Source: Natrinema versiforme
Lineage (GTDB): Archaea > Halobacteriota > Halobacteria > Halobacteriales > Natrialbaceae
Assembly: GCF_005576615.1 (NCBI RefSeq)
Contig: NZ_CP040330.1
Coordinates: 1,550,001-1,614,000 of the forward strand
Direction: 5' to 3'
Length of the DNA: 64,000 bases
Under the pieces are notes generated by a model. It saw nothing but the letters and a program-made list of their open reading frames with translations. It was not told where the DNA came from and ran no database searches. The position numbers and the translations under genes were made by a program. Shown here piece after piece: positions 48,191 to 58,916 of the stretch (its first letter is position 1; the number at the start of each line of letters is the position of its first letter).

Positions 48191-48910
48191 CCTTCGTCTG
48201 AAGGCAACTTCGTGTGTACTCTCCCCTTCGCCCCGGACTCCCAAGAAGGTGATGCCGGCACTCGTGCGTGAGTGGTGACTCGGCAAGCCGCGGTCGACGG
48301 AACGAGACGCCTCGTCGACAGTCGAAACGGGAGTTTTCGGCCGATTTCGGCGCGAATCGGAGCGTGTAGGCACTCGTTGTCGCTCCGTGGTCGTTCCGTC
48401 GCCCGAGAGTGTCTGCTGAACTCACGTGTCCCACTCGGGTAAATATCGGATTACTCGAGCCAGCTATCCGAGGGGTCGTCTGCTATCTCAAGCTTTCCGC
48501 TCAAACGGATCCCAGTCGTTGCTTCGGGTACAGCATTCCGTCCCACAGTACACAGGTGAAATCCGCCCGATTGCGTCGACTCGAGGCCCGCGATCGTGCG
48601 TGGCCTCGAGGGCCAGACACCTGCGACTTTTCGGACGACTACCACACATGGAAGACCACTGTACCGCGGTCGGTATCCCTGTCGAAACGGCGAACGAAAC
48701 CATTCTCCAACGCGGGCCCGGACTCCCCCTCAGGGCGACGTTCTTCGGGGCCGGGCCCGCTTCCGCGCTGAGAGGACCCGATTGGCAGTCCGTATCTCGC
48801 CAGTCGACGTTCCGCCCGCCATCGGTCGGCGGTCGGCTGACGGCGTCCGAGCCGCCCGTTCGAGGCGCAGTGACCGCCGGAGCCGCGCTCGACCCTCGGG
48901 GTGATCGCGC
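48191..48910. other. 720-nt spacer without a credible gene
   Basis: Open frames here are short, their codon use shifts, and none shows a domain. No inverted repeats or transposase relics recognised. It separates the minus-strand gyrase/proteasome block from the plus-strand transporter block and must hold the promoter of the NRAMP-like gene, for which I see no clear TATA box. Confidence 0.4.
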
Positions 48911-50167
48911 ATGAGCGGCGAGTCGGCCTCGGCGTCGGAATTCGTCAAGGCCATTCCTGGCGGCGAAACGATACACGGGGCGCTCTACAGATACGGTCTG
49001 GGTATCATGTTCGCTGCAAACGTGTTCGGAGCGGGGTCGGTGTACATCCTCGCCGACACGGGCGCGAACTTCGCGTACTCCCTGTTGTGGGTCCTCCCGC
49101 TCGCGTTCTTCATCGATATCGCCCTCCACGACATGAGCGCTCGACTCGCCGTCGCCGACGAACCGCTCGCCGATTACATCGTCGATGCCGTTCCGATCGG
49201 AAGTCGACCGCTCCTCGTCGGCATCTCGCTGATGTCGGCGCTGTGGGCCGTGTCGAACTACGCCGTCGCCGGAGCGGCGCTCGCCTGGCTCGTTCCGTTC
49301 TTCGACAACGTGATCGTCGGCATCGTCCTCGCGGCCGGGTTCGGCGTCGGCATCGTGCAGATGAAGGTCTACGATCGGATCGAAGCGGTGATCGCCGTGA
49401 TGGTGTTCGCCGTCTTCGGTTCGTACGGCCTGCTCCTCGCGGGGCTCGACGTTCCGTGGCAGTCCGTCGCAGCGGGACTCCAGCCGGCGCTCGCGACCGA
49501 TATCGGCTACCTCACTGCGGTCATCGCCCTGCTGGGAACGACGGTCTACTGGCCGAACTTCTTCATCCAGTCGAGCATCCAGCCGACGAAGGAGTGGTCG
49601 GACATCTGGGACTACCGCCGTGACAACGCCGCCGGGATCGCGACGACGCTCACCATCGGCAGCTTCGTGATGATCGTCTCGGCGGTCACCCTCTCCGAGG
49701 GGAGCATGACGCTGACGGGCCCCGGCGTCCCGCTCGCGGAGATCATCGGTCACGGAGCGCTCGTCGTGTTCATGATCGCGGTGCTCTGTGCGACCATCAC
49801 GTCGGCGACCGGGACGCTGTTCGGCGCCGGGTTCATCATCCCGCAATCGCTCGGCCGGCACACGGTCTTCGGCGATACCGCGTTCCGACGAACGGTCATC
49901 GCACTGGTCGTCTTCTCGGCCGCGACAGCCCTGCCGATGCTGCTCTACACGGGATTCGACCCCGTCGAGATGGCGATCATCATGCCGGCCGTCAACGGCG
50001 CGATCGGGCTTCCCCTGACCGTCTTCGCCCTCATCGGTGCCGTCAACAGGTACTACGACATCGCGTGGTACGAGAACGCGGGGTTCCTGGCCGCGGGAAT
50101 CGTGCTGCTGATCGGGAGCCTCATGACGGTCCAGTCGCTCTACGAGACGATCGTGGGCATTCTCTAA
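48911..50167 (+). CDS. NRAMP-related membrane transporter with altered metal site
   Basis: A 418-residue protein with 11 or so helices. TM1 aligns to NRAMP (GLGIMFAANVFGAGSVYILADTGANFAYSLLW), but the metal-binding Asp-Pro-Gly-Asn is Gly-Ala-Gly-Ser here (residues 40-43). TM6 has TVYWPNFFIQSS where NRAMP has MPH near 214-216 (Trp-Pro-Asn). Both ligand sets of Mn/Fe transport are therefore changed, as also happens in Mg2+-transporting NRAMP relatives. The substrate could be Mg2+ or another ion. It begins the plus-strand block with TauE next. Confidence 0.75.
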   Translation: MSGESASASEFVKAIPGGETIHGALYRYGLGIMFAANVFGAGSVYILADTGANFAYSLLWVLPLAFFIDIALHDMSARLAVADEPLADYIVDAVPIGSRPLLVGISLMSALWAVSNYAVAGAALAWLVPFFDNVIVGIVLAAGFGVGIVQMKVYDRIEAVIAVMVFAVFGSYGLLLAGLDVPWQSVAAGLQPALATDIGYLTAVIALLGTTVYWPNFFIQSSIQPTKEWSDIWDYRRDNAAGIATTLTIGSFVMIVSAVTLSEGSMTLTGPGVPLAEIIGHGALVVFMIAVLCATITSATGTLFGAGFIIPQSLGRHTVFGDTAFRRTVIALVVFSAATALPMLLYTGFDPVEMAIIMPAVNGAIGLPLTVFALIGAVNRYYDIAWYENAGFLAAGIVLLIGSLMTVQSLYETIVGIL

Positions 50168-50341
50168 TCGCGGATCGGCGTTCCGTTTTCCGCCGGGTCG
50201 ACTCCGAGCGAGAGCGTACTCGACCGGTCCGTCCGTTCGGTTCGCGAGAGTGTACTCGACTATTTGATCGGTAGCTGACCCGAGGGGGTCGAAATCAGAA
50301 GAGTTAGTTCGAGCGCCACGGACCACTGGATACCCTCCCAG

Positions 50342-51121
50342 ATGCTCGAGTTGCCCTTCGGTCCCTCGCTGGTCCTGTTGCTCGTGTCGATCGCCTTCTT
50401 CTCCGGCATCGGCATCACCACGATCGGTCCCGGCGGCATCTTCGTGACGATCGCGCTGTACTCGCTGACCCCGCTGGCCTCGAGTCAGGTCGCCGGGACC
50501 GCCCACGCGACGTTCGTCGTGACGGGACTCGTCGGCAGCGCCGCCTACCTCCACTCCGGGGAGATGAACACCGGCGAGAGCCGCGCGATCGCGATCGTCC
50601 TCAGCGGCTCGAGCGTCCTCGGCGCGCTCGTCGGCTCGTACGTGAACGCGTTCGTCCCGCGATCGGTGTTCGGCGTCCTGCTCGGCGGTGTCGCGATGGC
50701 CGTCGGCGGGATCATCCTCTATCGCGAGCGGCGGGGCTTTAGCCCGGTCTACGATCTCGAGCCGCTGAGCGGGACCGGCCGGCTCGTCCTCGCGGGGCTC
50801 GGGTTCGTTCTCGGGATCGCCAGCGGGCTGTTGGGGATTGGCGGCCCGGTACTCGCCGTCCCCGCGCTTGTCCTCGTCGGCGTGCCGATGTTGCTCGCGG
50901 TCGCCGTCGCACAGGTCCAGTCGATCTTCATCGCGACGTTCGCGGCGTCGGGCTATTTCCTGCAGGGGAACGTGCTGATGCCGCTCGCGGTCGTCGTCGG
51001 CACGCCGCTGTTGCTCGGCGTCGTCGTCGGCTGGCGGGTCGCCCACGTCATCGATCCCGAGCGGCTGAAGGTCGCGCTGGGCGTCGTCCTGCTGGGCGTC
51101 GGGCCCTACCTCGCGCTCTGA
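50342..51121 (+). CDS. TauE/SafE family sulfite or anion exporter
   Basis: A 259-residue protein with eight membrane helices in two halves. Each half has the TauE signature: GIGITTIGPGGIFVTIALYSL with VAGTAHATFVVTG in the first, GIASGLLGIGGPVLAVPALVL with VAVAQVQSIFIATFAA in the second. The family exports sulfite, sulfoacetate or other organosulfur anions. The spacer to the NRAMP-like gene is 174 nt, so co-transcription is possible only weakly. It is followed by a UspA gene after 52 nt. Confidence 0.88.
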   Translation: MLELPFGPSLVLLLVSIAFFSGIGITTIGPGGIFVTIALYSLTPLASSQVAGTAHATFVVTGLVGSAAYLHSGEMNTGESRAIAIVLSGSSVLGALVGSYVNAFVPRSVFGVLLGGVAMAVGGIILYRERRGFSPVYDLEPLSGTGRLVLAGLGFVLGIASGLLGIGGPVLAVPALVLVGVPMLLAVAVAQVQSIFIATFAASGYFLQGNVLMPLAVVVGTPLLLGVVVGWRVAHVIDPERLKVALGVVLLGVGPYLAL

Positions 51122-51173
51122 GACGGCTCCTGCCGGACCCAGACTGAAGGCGACGGGCGTCGACACCCCGCCC

Positions 51174-51596
51174 GTGGCCCGAATCCTCGTTCCCTTCGAC
51201 GACTCCGAACCCGCCCGCGACGCCCTCGGGTACGCGTTCGACCTGTTCCCCGACGGCGACGTGATCGTGCTGGTCGTCGTCGACACCACGTCGCTGCCCT
51301 TCATCCCGAACACGGCCGACGACGAGTCGAGCGACGAGTCCCAGGAACTGCTCTCGGAGGCCGCCGACCTGCTCGAGACCGCGGAGTCGATCGCCGCGGA
51401 CCGCGGGGTCGACGTCGAGACGCGAACGCGGCTGGGGACACCGGCCCAAGAGATCCTCGAGTTCGCCGAGGGGGAATCCATCGACCACGTCGTCATCGGC
51501 AGCCACGGCCGGTCGGGCGTCGCGCGGATCCTGCTGGGCAGCGTCGCCGAGGTCGTCGTTAGACACTCGCCCGTGCCGGTGACCGTCGTCCGGTGA
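51174..51596 (+). CDS. universal stress protein (UspA family)
   Basis: A 140-residue protein that starts at GTG 51174 (ARILVPFDDSEPARDAL). The ATP-binding motif GSHGRSGVARILLGSVAEVVVRHS is complete (G-x2-G-x9-G-[ST]), and VPVTVVR ends the protein, as in ATP-binding Usp. It probably acts as a small nucleotide-binding stress or ion-regulation protein. It is placed 52 nt after the TauE gene and may be its partner, since Usp proteins often accompany transporters. Confidence 0.92.
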   Translation: MARILVPFDDSEPARDALGYAFDLFPDGDVIVLVVVDTTSLPFIPNTADDESSDESQELLSEAADLLETAESIAADRGVDVETRTRLGTPAQEILEFAEGESIDHVVIGSHGRSGVARILLGSVAEVVVRHSPVPVTVVR

Positions 51597-51696
51597 CGGA
51601 CCGTCGCGGCGAGCCGAGCGCACCGACTCCCCCGGACCCTGCAAACACGGGCAGCGAACTCTTTGCCCCGAGAGGCCGACCCCGACTCGAGAGCCA

Positions 51697-52224
51697 ATGA
51701 GCGAGTACGACGGCACGGAGAATCCCGAAACCCCGTGGCGGGGCGACGAGGACGGCGCGTCCGAAGACGACGCCCGCGGCGGCGAGGGGCTGACCGGTGG
51801 GGACAGAACGCCGTACGGACCGAACCCGGACGAACGGGGAAAAGGACTGTCGGCGGTCGCCGGCCTGCTCGGGCTCGCGCTGATCGTACAGGCCCTCGTC
51901 CTCGAGCTCGCCGCGGGCCAGTTCTGGAACGACGCGCTCGTCGGGGCGACCCTGTTCGTCGCCGGCGCGTACAACTACTACCGCCGGTCGAACGAGGAGT
52001 TCGGGAGCATCGGCGTCGCCTCGCTCGTAGCGCTCCTCGGACTGTGGCTCGTCGCGTCGCCGTTCCTGCTCGGCACCGGATCGGGCCTCGCCGAGACCGC
52101 GAACGATCTCGGTTTCTGGACCGACGTCGTCGTCGGCCTGCTCGCGGTCGGGCTGGGTTCGTACAGCGCTTACGAGATTCGCGAGCGCCGCCGGGACGTC
52201 GACGTGCGGCGGACGGTGACCTGA
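51697..52224 (+). CDS. SPW-repeat membrane protein (second copy)
   Basis: A 175-residue protein with an acidic N-terminal 45 residues and four membrane helices. The two SPW units: LIVQALVLELAAGQFWNDALVGATLFVAGAYNYY, and SLVALLGLWLVASPFLLGTGS. It is the same family as the protein encoded at 21294-21737 but GC-rich as its surroundings. Function unknown. No coupled neighbour; the next gene begins 110 nt downstream. Confidence 0.85.
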   Translation: MSEYDGTENPETPWRGDEDGASEDDARGGEGLTGGDRTPYGPNPDERGKGLSAVAGLLGLALIVQALVLELAAGQFWNDALVGATLFVAGAYNYYRRSNEEFGSIGVASLVALLGLWLVASPFLLGTGSGLAETANDLGFWTDVVVGLLAVGLGSYSAYEIRERRRDVDVRRTVT

Positions 52225-52333
52225 CTCGCCGACGCGTTCCGCGATTCGATATCGCGGCGAATCCGCTCGCGAATCGTGATTGTGGCATACTCCGGCCCAA
52301 TCCACTTATCCCGCGTTCTGGTAGGGTGGTCCG

Positions 52334-53593
52334 ATGGTTCCGCTCGTCGCGATACTGCTCGCACTCGTCGTCGGCGCGGTGATTCTCGAAGTCGTGTCGT
52401 ATCGAGCGCTCGAACGGATTCCCTCGGTCGCCACCGAGGAGTTCCCCGAGATCGACCGGGAGTTACTGGGGAAGTTCAGCAGTTTCGATCCCGAACTGGG
52501 CTGGTGTCCCCAACCCAATCGGGAGAAACAGAAGGACACGGGCGACCACCTCCCCGGTGAGGAGGTCCGCAGCGTCGTCACGTACTCGACCGACGAGTAC
52601 GCGAGTCGGGTCTGCCCCGCGAAGGAGCGCGACCCCGACGCCGATCTCACGGTCTCGACCTACGGCGACTCCTACTGTTTCTGTCGGGAGGTCGACAACG
52701 ACGAGACGTTCCAAAACTACCTCGCGCAGGAACTCGACACCCACGTCGCCAACTACGGCGGCGGCAACTACGGTCTGGATCAGGCGCTGATGCGACTCAA
52801 ACGCCAGTACCCCGAGGACCCGACCGACCACGTGTTCATGGTCGTCACCGCCTCCTCGATCGCCCGCATCCTCTCGGTCTGGAAACACTATCAGGAGTTC
52901 GGGAACATCCTCGCAGTCAAACCCCGGTACGTCCTCGAGGACGGCGACCTCGAGCGCGTCGAGAGCCCCGTCGACGAAAAAGAGGAGTTGCTCGACCTCG
53001 AGTCGAAGGCCGATTTCCTGCGGGAGTACGACTTCCACTACGACCACTGGTTCAAACCGCACTTCGCGACGCGGCCCTACACGGCTGACTTCCTCGAGAA
53101 GAACGAACACGTCCGGTACGCGGCGTATACGGCCGGAAAGGAACTCGAGCGTCGGCTCGAGCGATCGATTCCGGGGATCGACTTCGATCTGGCACAGACC
53201 CAATCGGCGTTGCGGCTGGAGCGGCCCCGCGTGCGGTATCACGAACGGCTGTTCGACACCCACGAGGCCCTCTTCGACGCGCTCATCGAGGAGTTCGTCG
53301 ACTACGCGGACGAGCAGGGGTTCGAGCCGACGTTCGTGATGGTCCAGCAGCTCCGGTACGCGACCTACGAGTCCGAACACGGCCCGATCTACGGCGACCT
53401 GATGGATCGACTCGACGAGCGCTACGACGAGCTGACGACGATCGACATGGCCACGCATCTCTCGCCCGACGACGGTGATGTCGAGTCGCTGTACGTCGAG
53501 CGCGGTGAGGGCGGCCACTACAGCCCCGAGACCAACGCGGAAATCGCGCAGGTGCTGGCCGAGGTCGTCGAGGAGCGGGCAGTCGTGGAATGA
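52334..53593 (+). CDS. membrane-anchored SGNH/GDSL hydrolase-like protein
   Basis: A 419-residue protein. One N-terminal helix (residues 2-22) anchors it, with the rest most likely outside. Block I is GDSYCFCREV with Ser113 as nucleophile, a second block is YGGGNYGLDQAL (Asn145), and the end has GEGGHYSPETNAEIA with Glu392 and His395 in the place of the usual DxxH. This is the SGNH pattern of AlgX-like esterases that act on acyl groups of envelope polysaccharides. Cys-x-Cys in block I is unusual. The TGA of this gene overlaps the ATG of the next by 4 nt, so they are translated together. Confidence 0.75.
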   Translation: MVPLVAILLALVVGAVILEVVSYRALERIPSVATEEFPEIDRELLGKFSSFDPELGWCPQPNREKQKDTGDHLPGEEVRSVVTYSTDEYASRVCPAKERDPDADLTVSTYGDSYCFCREVDNDETFQNYLAQELDTHVANYGGGNYGLDQALMRLKRQYPEDPTDHVFMVVTASSIARILSVWKHYQEFGNILAVKPRYVLEDGDLERVESPVDEKEELLDLESKADFLREYDFHYDHWFKPHFATRPYTADFLEKNEHVRYAAYTAGKELERRLERSIPGIDFDLAQTQSALRLERPRVRYHERLFDTHEALFDALIEEFVDYADEQGFEPTFVMVQQLRYATYESEHGPIYGDLMDRLDERYDELTTIDMATHLSPDDGDVESLYVERGEGGHYSPETNAEIAQVLAEVVEERAVVE

Positions 53594-54588
53594 ACCCGTT
53601 CTATCTCGTCGCCGGGATCGTTATCCTCGTCATCGGGATCGTGGACATCATCTGGACGACGCTCTGGGTCGACGGCGGCTCCGGCCCCCTCTCGGGCCGG
53701 CTCACGACCGGGGTCTGGCACGGGCTCCGAACCACGAGCGGCAATCACGACAAAGCGCTCAGTATCGCGGGCCCGCTCATTCTCGTCCTCACGCTCGTCA
53801 TGTGGATCGGCCTCATCTGGCTCGGGTGGACGCTCGTCTTCGCTAGCTACCCGCATTCGCTCGTCAGTACCCGCTCCGGGGCCGTCGCCGACTGGTCGGG
53901 CCGGTTCTACTACGTCGCCTACACGATGTTCACGGACGGCAACGGCGACTACACGCCGCTGGGCGATGTCTGGGAGATCGCCAGTTCGCTCACGACGGCC
54001 TCGGGGATGGCATTCGTCACGCTCGGCGTCTCCTACATTCTCACCGTTCTCGGAGCCGTCTCGAACAAACGCTCCTTCGCGAGCACCGTCACGGGACTGG
54101 GCGAGCGAAGCGAGGCCTTCGTCCGGACGGGCTGGACCGGCGAGGACTTCCAGGGGCTCGATCTGACCGTCGAGTCCCTCGCCTCGGAGCTGAGCCTGCT
54201 GGCCGAACAGCACAAGTCCTATCCGATCCTCCACTATTACCACAGCGAACAGGCCGATCGAGCGTCGGCCGTGGCGGTCCCCGTCTTCGACGAGGCGCTC
54301 GCACTCTTTCGCTACGGCGTCCCCGACGAGGCCAGTCCCGACCCCGCGATCATCGAGAACGGGCGCTCGAGCGCCGAGAGCTACATCGAAACGCTCGACG
54401 CCGCGTTCATCGAGCCCGCCGACGAGGTACCGCCATGGCCCGAACTCGATCGACTCCGCGAGGACGACATCCCGACCGTCTCGGACGCGGAGTTCGAGGC
54501 CGAATTCGAGGCGATGACCGAGCGCCGCCGGCATCTACTCGGCATCGTCCGCGGCGACGCCTGGGAGTGGCCGCCGGTCGAGGAGTGA
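53590..54588 (+). CDS. ion-channel-like membrane protein with altered selectivity filter
   Basis: A 332-residue protein. Three hydrophobic helices: residues 4-26, 58-86 and 129-155. Between the second and third lies a pore-loop-like stretch (FYYVAYTMFTDGNGDYTPLGDVW, residues 107-128) with TDGNGD (115-120) in the position of the TVGYGD filter of K+ channels. The C-terminal 175 residues are soluble and helical. Changing the second and fourth filter residues to Asp and Asn implies a non-K+ selectivity or loss of conduction. Overlaps the SGNH gene by 4 nt. Channel function is inferred. Confidence 0.7.
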   Translation: MNPFYLVAGIVILVIGIVDIIWTTLWVDGGSGPLSGRLTTGVWHGLRTTSGNHDKALSIAGPLILVLTLVMWIGLIWLGWTLVFASYPHSLVSTRSGAVADWSGRFYYVAYTMFTDGNGDYTPLGDVWEIASSLTTASGMAFVTLGVSYILTVLGAVSNKRSFASTVTGLGERSEAFVRTGWTGEDFQGLDLTVESLASELSLLAEQHKSYPILHYYHSEQADRASAVAVPVFDEALALFRYGVPDEASPDPAIIENGRSSAESYIETLDAAFIEPADEVPPWPELDRLREDDIPTVSDAEFEAEFEAMTERRRHLLGIVRGDAWEWPPVEE

Positions 54589-54698: not shown

Positions 54699-56207
54699 AT
54701 GGAGGAGTACGACGTTCTGGTCATCGGCTCCGGCTCCGGCCTCGACGTAGCCAACGCGGCGGCGAATCAGGGAGAGTCGGTCGCGGTCGTCGAGAAGGGA
54801 CGACTCGGCGGCACCTGCCTCAACCGCGGCTGTATTCCGTCGAAGAAGCTGCTGTACCACGCCGACGTGATGGAAACGATCGATCGTGCCGACGAGTTTA
54901 AGATCGACGCGTCGGTCGACGGCGTTCAGTTCGCCGAGATCGTCCGCGAGGTCACCGCGGACGTCCACGGCAGTTCGGACTCGATCGAGCGCGGCCTCAG
55001 TTCTTCCGACCGGATCGACCTGTATCGAGCGAAAGCCCGGTTCGTCGACGACCGCACGCTCGAGCTCTCCGGCGGGGACCGGGACGGTGAGCGCCTCGCG
55101 GCGGAGACCGTCCTCGTCGCGGCGGGCACCCGTCCGGCGATTCCGCCGATCGACGGCATCGAGACCGTCGACTACCTCACCAGTAGGGAGGCGCTCCAGT
55201 TAGAGACCCCACCGGACCACCTCGTCATCGTCGGCGGCGGCTACATCGCCGCCGAACTGGCCCAGTTCTTCGGCACCTTCGGTAGCGAGATCTCGATCGT
55301 CGGCCGGCGGCCGACCCTGCTTCCCGACGCCGACGAGGAAGTAGCCGCCGCGTTCACGGAGCGCTACGCCGACCGATTCAACGTCTACACCGGCTACGAG
55401 GCCACCGCGGCTATGCAGTCCGAGGGCTCGATCACCGTCGAGGCGAGCCCCTTCGCCGACGCGGACGGCGCGATGGCGAGCCCGACCGAGCAGATTTCGG
55501 TCACCGGCGACGAACTGCTCGTCGCGGCCGGCCGTACTCCCAACACGGACACGTTGAACGTCGAGGCCGCCGGCATCGAAACCGACAAGTTCGGATTCGT
55601 CGAGACCGACGCGTACCTGCGGACGACCGCCGAGGGCGTCTGGGCGCTCGGCGATATCGTCGGCGAGTACCTGCTGAAACACAACGCGAACCACGAGGCG
55701 CGGGCCGTCGCGCGAAACCTCTTTGGCGATGACCTCGAGGCGGTCGACTACTCGGCGATGCCCTTCGCCGTCTTCGGGTCGCCGGAGGTCGCCGGCGTCG
55801 GGCTGACCGAACAGGAACTTCGGGAGGCGGACCGAGAGTACGCAAAGCGCACCTACCGCTACGAGGAGACCGCCCGCGGGTCGGCGATGAAAGCGGAGGG
55901 GTTCGTCAAGCCGATCATCGACCTCGAGGGCGAAATTCTGGGCTGTCACATCATCGGCCCCGAGGCCTCGGATCTGATTCAGGAGGTCGTCGTGGCGATG
56001 ACGGCGGGCACCGGGACGGTGCGGGACATCCGGGAGTCGATCCACATCCACCCCGCGCTCTCGGAGGTCGTCCAGCGCGCGTTCTCCGGGGAATTCACGC
56101 TCGGTGACACCCACGGCCACGGGCATTCCGACGATCACGGGCACGATACCGGGCACGAACGCGGCCACAGTCACGACCACGGGCACAGCCACGATCACGA
56201 CCACTGA
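54699..56207 (+). CDS. FAD disulfide oxidoreductase (dihydrolipoyl dehydrogenase / mercuric-reductase-like) with His-rich tail
   Basis: A 502-residue protein from ATG 54699 (MEEYDVLVIGSGSGLDVANAAANQG). FAD binding at 8-25; the redox pair Cys40 and Cys45 in GGTCLNRGCIPSKK; NAD binding VGGGYIAAELAQFFG near 180; and the interface HIHPALSEVVQRA with the catalytic His-Glu dyad. The last 32 residues have about 14 His alternating with Asp, Gly and Ser. Mercuric reductases have an N-terminal HMA domain, not seen here. The tail suggests metal binding. It could be a lipoamide dehydrogenase paralogue or a metal-responsive reductase. Confidence 0.85.
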   Translation: MEEYDVLVIGSGSGLDVANAAANQGESVAVVEKGRLGGTCLNRGCIPSKKLLYHADVMETIDRADEFKIDASVDGVQFAEIVREVTADVHGSSDSIERGLSSSDRIDLYRAKARFVDDRTLELSGGDRDGERLAAETVLVAAGTRPAIPPIDGIETVDYLTSREALQLETPPDHLVIVGGGYIAAELAQFFGTFGSEISIVGRRPTLLPDADEEVAAAFTERYADRFNVYTGYEATAAMQSEGSITVEASPFADADGAMASPTEQISVTGDELLVAAGRTPNTDTLNVEAAGIETDKFGFVETDAYLRTTAEGVWALGDIVGEYLLKHNANHEARAVARNLFGDDLEAVDYSAMPFAVFGSPEVAGVGLTEQELREADREYAKRTYRYEETARGSAMKAEGFVKPIIDLEGEILGCHIIGPEASDLIQEVVVAMTAGTGTVRDIRESIHIHPALSEVVQRAFSGEFTLGDTHGHGHSDDHGHDTGHERGHSHDHGHSHDHDH

Positions 56208-56438: not shown

Positions 56439-58916
56439 ATGACGTCGTTCCAGTCGACACTCGGTGACGAGCCGGGGATCGCCGAGGAGCTGGCGGAGAG
56501 CCAGCAGTCGATCTCCATCGCCGAGTTCTTCGAGAAGAACAAGCACATGCTCGGCTTCGACAGCGGTGCTCGAGGCCTCGTCACGGCCGTCAAGGAGGCC
56601 GTCGACAACGCCTTAGACGCCGCCGAGGAGTCGGGTATTCTCCCGGATATCTACGTCGATATTCAGGAAGCCGGCGACTACTACCGCCTGATCGTCGAGG
56701 ATAACGGCCCGGGACTCACGAAAGAAACGCTCCCGAAGGTCTTCGGGAAACTGCTCTACGGCTCTCGCTTTCACGCACGCGAACAATCCCGCGGCCAGCA
56801 GGGGATCGGTATCTCTGCTGCAGTTCTGTACGCCCAGCTGACCAGCGGGAAACCCGCGAAGATCACCAGTCGGACGCAGGGGTCGGAAGACGCCGAGTAC
56901 TTCGAGCTCATCGTCGATACCGACAGCAACGAGCCCGAAATCAGCGTCGAGGAGACGACCACGTGGGACCGCCCCCACGGCACCCGCATCGAACTCGAGA
57001 TGGAGGCCAACATGCGCGCCCGCCAGCAGCTCCACGACTATATCAAGCACACGGCGGTCGTCAACCCCCACGCCCGCCTCGAGTTGCGCGAACCGCAGGA
57101 ACACTTCAAGTTCGAGCGCGCGACCGACCAACTCCCCGAGGAGACCGAGGAGATTCGGCCCCACCCCCACGGCGTCGAACTCGGCACCGTGATGAAGATG
57201 CTGACGGCGACGGACTCCCAGACGGTCTCGGGGTTCGTCCAAGAGGAGTTCACCCGCGTCGGCAAGAAGACCGCCGACTCGATCATCGACGCGTTCCGCG
57301 ACCGTCACTACGGCCGCGAGATGCGCTGGCGGCCGCCGGCGAGCCACGAGGAGATAGACCTCCACGCCGCAGTCGAGGACGCGACGGCGAACAAAGGTGC
57401 CGACGCGACGAGCGCGTTCGCCGACGCCATCGCCGACGCGGTCGCGGATTCCGACCGCATCGCCCACTTCGAACTGCGCGAGGCCGTCGAATCGGCCGCC
57501 GAGGCGGTCGAGGACGACCACGGAACGACGTTCGGCGACACCGTTCGGGAAAACGCCGTCGAGGCGGTCTGGCTCGAGTTGATCGATGTCGCCGAGGCAG
57601 ACGACGATGCGGCCGAGACGGACGACGAGGGCGAGCCGGCGACCGAGGCCGACGGCGACTCGAGACTCGTCGCCGACCTCTACGACCTCGCGGATGACGC
57701 GACGAGCACCCGCAAGGACGACGAAGTCATCCATGCCTTCGCCGACCGGCTCGCGGGCAAGTTCGAGGATCCCGAGGACGTTCGCCACCGGTTCACCTCC
57801 GAAACGCTGCGCGAGTACGTCGACCGGGCTGCGGACCTCACCGAGGAGTACGACGATGTCTCCTTCGGCGAGACGGCCCGTGAGAACGTCACGGAAGCCA
57901 TCTGGGACGTGATGGCCACCGTCCCGGACGACCCGCCGCTCGTTCGCGAACTCGACGGCGACCGCGACGCCACCAGCAACCTCGTCGACGCGATGCGCGC
58001 GACCGACATCATGGCACCGCCGACGCGGTGTCTCGCGCCCATCTCCGAGGACCTGATCACCGCCGGCCTCGAGAAGGAGTTCGACGCCGACTTCTTCGCC
58101 TCGGCGACCCGCGACGCGGGCGTCTCCGGCGGCGATCCGTTCATCGTCGAGGCCGGGATCGCCTACGGCGGCGACCTGCCGGCCGAGGGAACCGGCGAGG
58201 TCATGCGCTTTGCGAACCGGGTGCCGCTGGTCTACCAGCGCGGGGCCTGTGCGACGACGGACGTAGTGAAGTCGATCGGCTGGCGCAACTACGGCCTCGA
58301 CCAGCCCGGCGGCTCCGGCCTGCCGAACGGGCCGGTCGTGATCATGGTCCACGTCGCCTCGACGAACGTCCCCTTCACCAGCGAATCGAAAGACGCCGTC
58401 GCGAACGTCCCGGAGATCGAAGACGAAATCGAACTCGCGATCCGGGAGGCCGCACGCGATCTGAAGAGCTATCTCAACAAGCGCCGGTCGATGCAACAGC
58501 GCCGGAAGAAACAGAACGTCCTCGGGAAGATCCTCCCGGAGATGGCCGCGAAGGTCGCCGAAGTCACCGGCCGCGACGAGCCCGACATCGACGACGCGAT
58601 CGCACGGATCATGAACAACGTCCTCGTCGAGCGCCACACGGAGGCAAACGGCGACGGAAAAGCGGTCTCCGTCGTCGTCGAGAACAACTCGGGGACGAAC
58701 GAGTCCCTCGAGATCACCGATATCGTCTCGGCCGAACCCACCGATCTCTCCGACGGCGCGACCGTCGTCGAGATGGACGGCGAGTGGTTCGTCAAGTGGG
58801 AACCGGAGGTCTCGAGTGACGACGAGGCGGCCCTCGAGTACGAGGTACCGGACGACGCGACGTTCGATCTGGACGTCAAAGGCGTCGAAACGGAGAAACT
58901 GACGGTGAAACAATGA
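56439..58916 (+). CDS. top6B: DNA topoisomerase VI subunit B
   Basis: An 825-residue protein. GHKL ATPase: [39 protein letters not shown] and [21 protein letters not shown]2TH and transducer parts follow near 270-520, with the switch Lys in [13 protein letters not shown]-region. A long acidic insertion (about residues 300-470, [15 protein letters not shown]) is a haloarchaeal feature and lengthens the protein over the usual 530-700 residues. It overlaps top6A by 4 nt. With Top6A it relaxes and decatenates DNA by double-strand passage. Confidence 0.96.

Follow-up and report, generated by a model that had tools for sequence, protein, structure and literature searches.

The 64-kb window, by which we mean the whole stretch of DNA that was analysed, is a segment of the chromosome of the haloarchaeon Natrinema versiforme. 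Its genes run in the order gyrB, proteasome genes, Nramp, TauE, USP, SPW, the gene of an SGNH-fold protein (SGNH), the gene of a pore-loop protein (channel), a dihydrolipoyl-dehydrogenase-like gene, top6B, and top6A (Table 1). The original prediction for this locus was that SGNH and channel, whose reading frames overlap, form a system in which an envelope deacylase is coupled to a channel. The limits that it gave for both genes and for their ATGA overlap are exact. A public Natrinema GenBank record lists the SGNH orthologue as 'hypothetical protein' and the channel orthologue as 'two pore domain potassium channel family protein'.

Table 1. Genes and sequence features of the locus, in window coordinates.
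Feature	Position	Strand	Remarks
Nramp-like transporter (Nramp)	48911..50167	+	recurrent SGNH neighbour
TauE/SafE-family transporter (TauE)	50342..51121	+	recurrent SGNH neighbour
Universal stress protein (USP)	51174..51596	+	recurrent SGNH neighbour
SPW-repeat membrane protein (SPW)	51697..52224	+	at times between USP and SGNH
SGNH-fold protein gene, predicted membrane-anchored	52334..53593	+	419 aa, N-terminal hydrophobic helix 2-28
Block I, G-D-S-Y-C-F-C, residues 111-117, putative nucleophile Ser113	52664..52684	+	invariant, 42 homologues
Block II region NYGGGNYG, residues 140-147	52751..52774	+	alignment
Block III region, residues 172-178 (TASSIAR), with Ser174 in place of the canonical Asn	52847..52867	+	alignment
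Block V, E392-G-G-H395	53507..53518	+	alignment
ATGA overlap of the SGNH and channel genes, 4 nt	53590..53593	+	seen only in the window's genus
Three-helix pore-loop cation-channel-like protein gene	53590..54588	+	332 aa, C-terminal helical domain ~residues 171-332
Selectivity-filter motif T-D-G-N-G-D, residues 115-120	53932..53949	+	sequence
Topoisomerase VI subunit B (top6B)	56439..58916	+	conserved beside channel in some of the family's genomes, whether SGNH is there or not

Some other features of the window were noted. The dihydrolipoyl-dehydrogenase-like protein (54699-56207) has a long His-rich C-terminal tail (GHGHSDDHGHDTGHERGHSHDHGHSHDHDH), which is possibly metal-binding. The Nramp-like gene is atypical, and it adjoins the TauE/SafE gene. 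An open frame of 1270 aa on the minus strand (48488-52300) lies antisense to several genes and is most likely an artefact of the G+C-rich composition.

The SGNH-fold protein

The AlphaFold model of the SGNH protein (pLDDT 84.1, pTM 0.84) has the flavodoxin-like three-layer SGNH fold, and a fold search with this model gave CgnD (PDB 8a2n) at Z 18.0, with an rmsd of 3.6 over 242 residues, together with many GDSL esterases at Z 11-13. The SGNH hydrolase fold of the original prediction is thus borne out as a fold. Neither the protein nor its profile found anything meaningful in Pfam, NCBIfam, or PDB sequences, the best rows being unrelated proteins near E 1, and the GDSL models of Pfam and NCBIfam give no match to it. 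At a sensitivity suited to close relatives, the family was found in genome contigs of haloarchaea only; plasmid records gave one match, in Natrinema, and a scan of viral contigs found no relatives. A match in genome G062 (79 residues, E 1e-4) was left uncounted, as it overlaps a transporter-like ORF. A literature search on haloarchaeal SGNH hydrolases found nothing relevant.

The residues G111-D112-S113 and H395 are present in 42 of 42 homologues, and E392 in 40, the acid before the His being changed in two homologues, one of which is only 36% identical. The alignment shows NYGxGNYG of residues 140-147, the region in which the oxyanion Gly of block II would lie, to be near-invariant, with Asn140 and Asn145 invariant. 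At the position of the oxyanion Asn of block III (GxND), however, 41 of the 42 aligned homologues have Ser or Ala, and Asn is found only in the 36%-identical homologue. Because this Asn is replaced, the four-block SGNH signature is incomplete, while the assignment of the fold stands. Hence GDS and E-x-x-H are where they had been predicted, but the Asn holds only in part, since the conserved residues are Asn140 and Asn145 of block II and not that of block III. The Cys-x-Cys that had been noticed beside the nucleophile, C115-x-C117, is conserved in all 42. The absence of the block III Asn makes the catalytic competence of the protein uncertain. The N-terminal helix resembles a signal anchor, and homologues carry N-terminal basic residues, one of them in a Tat-like sequence (DRRSLLK). 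Judging from these basic residues, the protein, which its one N-terminal helix would anchor, is most likely exported.

The pore-loop protein

The AlphaFold model of the channel protein (pLDDT 88.9) shows helices at residues 3-25, 60-85, and 126-170, a pore helix at 102-112, and a helical C-terminal domain; the original prediction had given three helices and a large cytoplasmic domain. The outer helix, pore helix, filter, and inner helix are arranged as in 2TM/P-loop K+ channels. A fold search, which covered essentially residues 26-154, matched KirBac3.1 (Z 9.8, rmsd 2.0-3.3 for ~100 residues) and also the NaK channel (Z 8.5). A profile search gave Kv channels at E ~1e-4. The Pfam model PF07885 (Ion_trans_2) scores the window's protein at 20.3 bits, against a gathering threshold of 22.5, and matches 31 of 36 family members at E<0.1, with a best E of 1.9e-6.

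What ion might such a pore pass? The protein does not have the TxGYG/TxGFG signature of K+ selectivity, as its filter reads TDGNGD in place of the canonical TVGYGD. Most haloarchaeal members have T-[DNMLES]-G-N-G-D, with TLGIGD and TLGNGG also seen, while the filters of bacterial relatives (22-46% identity) contain GNG, GLG, GTG, GVG, GGG, or GFG. In almost every member observed, one of N, I, L, T, V, and G stands in place of the aromatic filter residue. The K+-channel-like pore loop of the original prediction is supported as a pore fold by the KirBac3.1 match, but its filter, though K+-channel-like, is non-canonical. Since T-x-G-N-G-D is non-aromatic, K+ selectivity is uncertain and a NaK-like non-selectivity is possible. 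We suggest that the protein may act as a cation channel, for which K+ selectivity is not to be assumed. It was also observed that polar residues (D/N/E) often occupy the usual Val position of the filter in this family (L161-L180), and that paralogues have GIG, GTG, and GNGG.

Distribution and gene neighbourhoods

Channel is present in 108 and SGNH in 57 of the 125 genomes of the window's family. Channel occurs without SGNH in 51 of the 108, and none of the 57 genomes with SGNH is without a channel homologue. The naive chance of the latter result, 1e-5, is confounded by descent, as both genes lie mostly in one inherited locus, and for this reason the result is not independent evidence of an association; it is compatible with some dependence of SGNH on channel. 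Outside the family, SGNH was found in at least 20 genomes, and a channel homologue is present in 9 of these and missing from 11 (3 of the 11 are <85% complete). G050 is the only one of them with SGNH near a channel paralogue (L135:7142-10338), and there the two are divergent, ~0.9 kb apart, with one gene between. The two genes thus do not co-occur across lineages. Searched for as a pair across archaea, they are for the most part found apart, the outcome that the original prediction had named as counting against it, while the structure predictions that it had proposed as a check do show an SGNH fold and a pore.

The spacing of the genes also varies. They abut or overlap in 27 of 27 genomes of the window's genus, with the exact spacing of the window in 25. 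Elsewhere in the family the gap is 81-446 nt in 10 genomes and 1.4-3.7 kb in 13, and in 7 genomes the genes are distant or on separate contigs; overall, they lie on the same strand within 3.7 kb in 50 of the 57. In G238, a congener, SGNH residues ~79-371, including Ser113, have been deleted in frame (L226:1282-1659), with the channel gene intact and the 4-nt overlap kept. SGNH is decayed in G237, and in G164 it is absent, with channel and the dehydrogenase gene kept. Because the spacing varies and SGNH is deleted, decayed, or absent where channel persists, the ATGA overlap is positional, not functional. SGNH and channel have been inherited, moved, and lost independently across related genomes, so that we see in them adjacent genes and not one machine for sensing the envelope. 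The coupling proposed for them is not supported, given an overlap confined to one genus, a channel often found without SGNH in the family, an SGNH mostly found without channel outside it, and the decay of SGNH where the channel stays. Since an ATGA overlap normally implies co-translation, the two genes are likely to be co-expressed in the window's genus.

Each gene has neighbours of its own. The order in the family is gyrB / TauE-USP-SGNH / channel / top6BA, in which channel tracks gyrBA/top6BA, and genomes without SGNH (G164, G036, G189) keep it next to gyrB or top6B. Outside this gyrB-top6BA site channel is found in other contexts, and its bacterial and plasmid relatives are often amid copper and stress genes. 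Haloarchaeal plasmid paralogues were seen beside copper/heavy-metal P-type ATPases, multicopper oxidases, or SHOCT-domain genes (L181, L182, L183, L184), and bacterial relatives near four-helix-bundle copper-binding proteins (L109, L111-L113).

The arrangement of SGNH in the window's family is (Nramp)-TauE-USP-SGNH. In other families it is TauE< Nramp< USP< SGNH> (f4), TauE-SGNH-TauE (f7), SGNH-TauE, with the sole TauE of that genome (f5), and Nramp-PiT-SGNH, with the only Nramp of that genome (f12); one f4 genome also has Nramp and a PiT transporter. TauE lies within 6 kb of SGNH in 3 of the 6 families outside the window's own, with a chance of ~4e-5, for which the number of genes in each genome served as the basis; this figure excludes the window's family because TauE was picked after inspection of the window. 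In f7 and f5, TauE and SGNH are accompanied by a gene pair that we take to resemble short-chain fatty acid transporters (AtoE-like). The genomes of f6 (Halococcus-like) and f14 (Halalkalicoccus-like) have no TauE, Nramp, or USP neighbours of SGNH. The literature was also searched for haloarchaeal TauE together with USP, and no relevant paper came up.

The two most divergent SGNH homologues, in G188 (L142:3659-11236) and G226 (L128:4487-15563), are found in surface-polysaccharide loci with teichoic-acid-like CDP-glycerol glycerophosphotransferases, sulfatases, and glycosyltransferases; the locus in G226 additionally has a flippase and sugar-nucleotide enzymes. Their location in such loci suggests a surface-glycan role for SGNH, a link that comes from these two divergent homologues and not from the window locus. 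Our best guess is that the SGNH protein is exported and acts on surface glycans as an esterase or acyltransferase; the gene in the window may have come to serve in a transport/stress context by recruitment. A literature search on SGNH with CDP-glycerol glycerophosphotransferase found nothing relevant.

Interpretation and comparison with known systems

We favour, with somewhat better than even confidence, the explanation that SGNH and channel are genes with separate functions, in contact by chance, one for an exported acyl enzyme of a glycan or other polymer and the other for a cation channel. The SGNH protein would be anchored by its N-terminal helix and most likely exported, with Ser113, His395, and Glu392 in its SGNH-fold catalytic domain. 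Most likely it would remove or transfer acyl groups of a surface polymer, either a glycan or a polyol-phosphate one, in the context of the TauE/SafE, Nramp-like, and USP genes that recur beside its own and not with the channel. The channel protein would be a single subunit, four of which presumably make up a cation channel whose pore is KirBac-like and which the cytoplasmic helical domain probably gates. The adjacency would stem from the position of both the TauE-USP-SGNH block and channel between gyrBA and top6BA in the family, and loss of spacer DNA would then have given the overlap in one genus.

An appreciable chance, if short of even, must be given to a haloarchaeal envelope/transport stress module of SGNH, TauE/SafE, Nramp-like, and USP proteins, in which SGNH (de)acylates a surface molecule, the transporters carry the small anions that arise, or counter-ions, and channel is a passenger. 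Such a module is supported by the repeated clustering of these genes, which is seen in several families and in differing orientations, and by the presumed AtoE-like pair in f7 and f5. However, f14 and f6 genomes have no such neighbours, and Nramp, TauE, and USP are common genes. More tentatively, this could be an undescribed haloarchaeal envelope module in which an exported enzyme of a new SGNH subfamily (GDSYCFC, no block III Asn) works together with USP, an Nramp-like transporter, and a TauE/SafE exporter. This enzyme would descend from enzymes for glycerol-phosphate surface polymers of the teichoic-acid-like kind, and its Cys pair could be a redox or metal switch. We think it unlikely that the SGNH fold of this protein has little or no catalytic activity and serves a binding or structural role in the envelope: the replaced block III Asn, and the replaced acid in two homologues, the 36% one included, would fit such a role, but Ser113, His395, and their flanks are more strongly conserved than a dead site would predict. 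Least probable, and in our opinion very improbable, is the envelope-sensing unit of the original prediction, with SGNH modifying or sensing an envelope glycolipid and the channel answering with ion flux, because the close spacing in the genus, the same-strand proximity in most of the family, and the lack of any family SGNH without channel are outweighed by the many channels without SGNH, the SGNH genomes outside the family without any channel, the core deletion in G238, and the ties of each gene to other neighbours.

Two independent genes thus remain our preferred explanation, which removes the claimed enzyme-channel system and leaves two testable leads instead. The first is an SGNH-fold subfamily missed by Pfam and NCBIfam, with an invariant Cys-x-Cys by the nucleophile and with divergent members tied to archaeal polyol-phosphate surface glycans. 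The second is a widespread channel family whose filter is without the aromatic residue of K+ channels. As read from the alignments, the new details are the invariance of GDSYCFC, the replacement of the block III Asn in 41 of 42 homologues, and T-x-G-N-G-D in place of TVGYGD. The locus further provides a clear example of an ATGA overlap that comes from position and not from function.

The nearest solved fold to the SGNH protein is CgnD, an SGNH-type hydrolase that frees crocagin from its leader peptide and has been shown by experiment to be a hydrolase, with a Ser79/His328/Asp325 triad in Ser/Asp-x-x-His form (PMC10070186). The two have in common the Ser nucleophile and the acid-x-x-His spacing, but they are only 16% identical, and CgnD works in a peptide-biosynthesis cluster, whereas there is no peptide cluster here. 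The SGNH protein also differs from CgnD in its N-terminal anchor, in Glu as the acid, and in the Cys-x-Cys after the nucleophile. With GDSL esterases/TesA, carbohydrate acetylesterases, and PatB it shares the SGNH core fold (Z 11-13), but unlike these it has the block III Asn replaced and is without a Pfam/NCBIfam GDSL match.

The window's channel belongs to the family that NCBI names 'two pore domain potassium channel family protein' or 'potassium channel family protein' in haloarchaea and bacteria, although it has a single pore domain per chain. It shares the slide-helix, pore-helix, and inner-helix arrangement of KirBac3.1 and the 2TM K+-channel pore, but it differs from KirBac3.1 in its extra N-terminal helix, in the T-x-G-N-G-D filter, and in a C-terminal domain that does not align to the Kir domain. 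The NaK channel has a TVGDGN filter and is non-selective (PMC9822992). Both NaK and the window's channel have a polar residue at the Tyr position of the filter; in the latter, unlike NaK, this is Asn followed by Gly-Asp, often with a polar residue (D/N/E) at the Val position.
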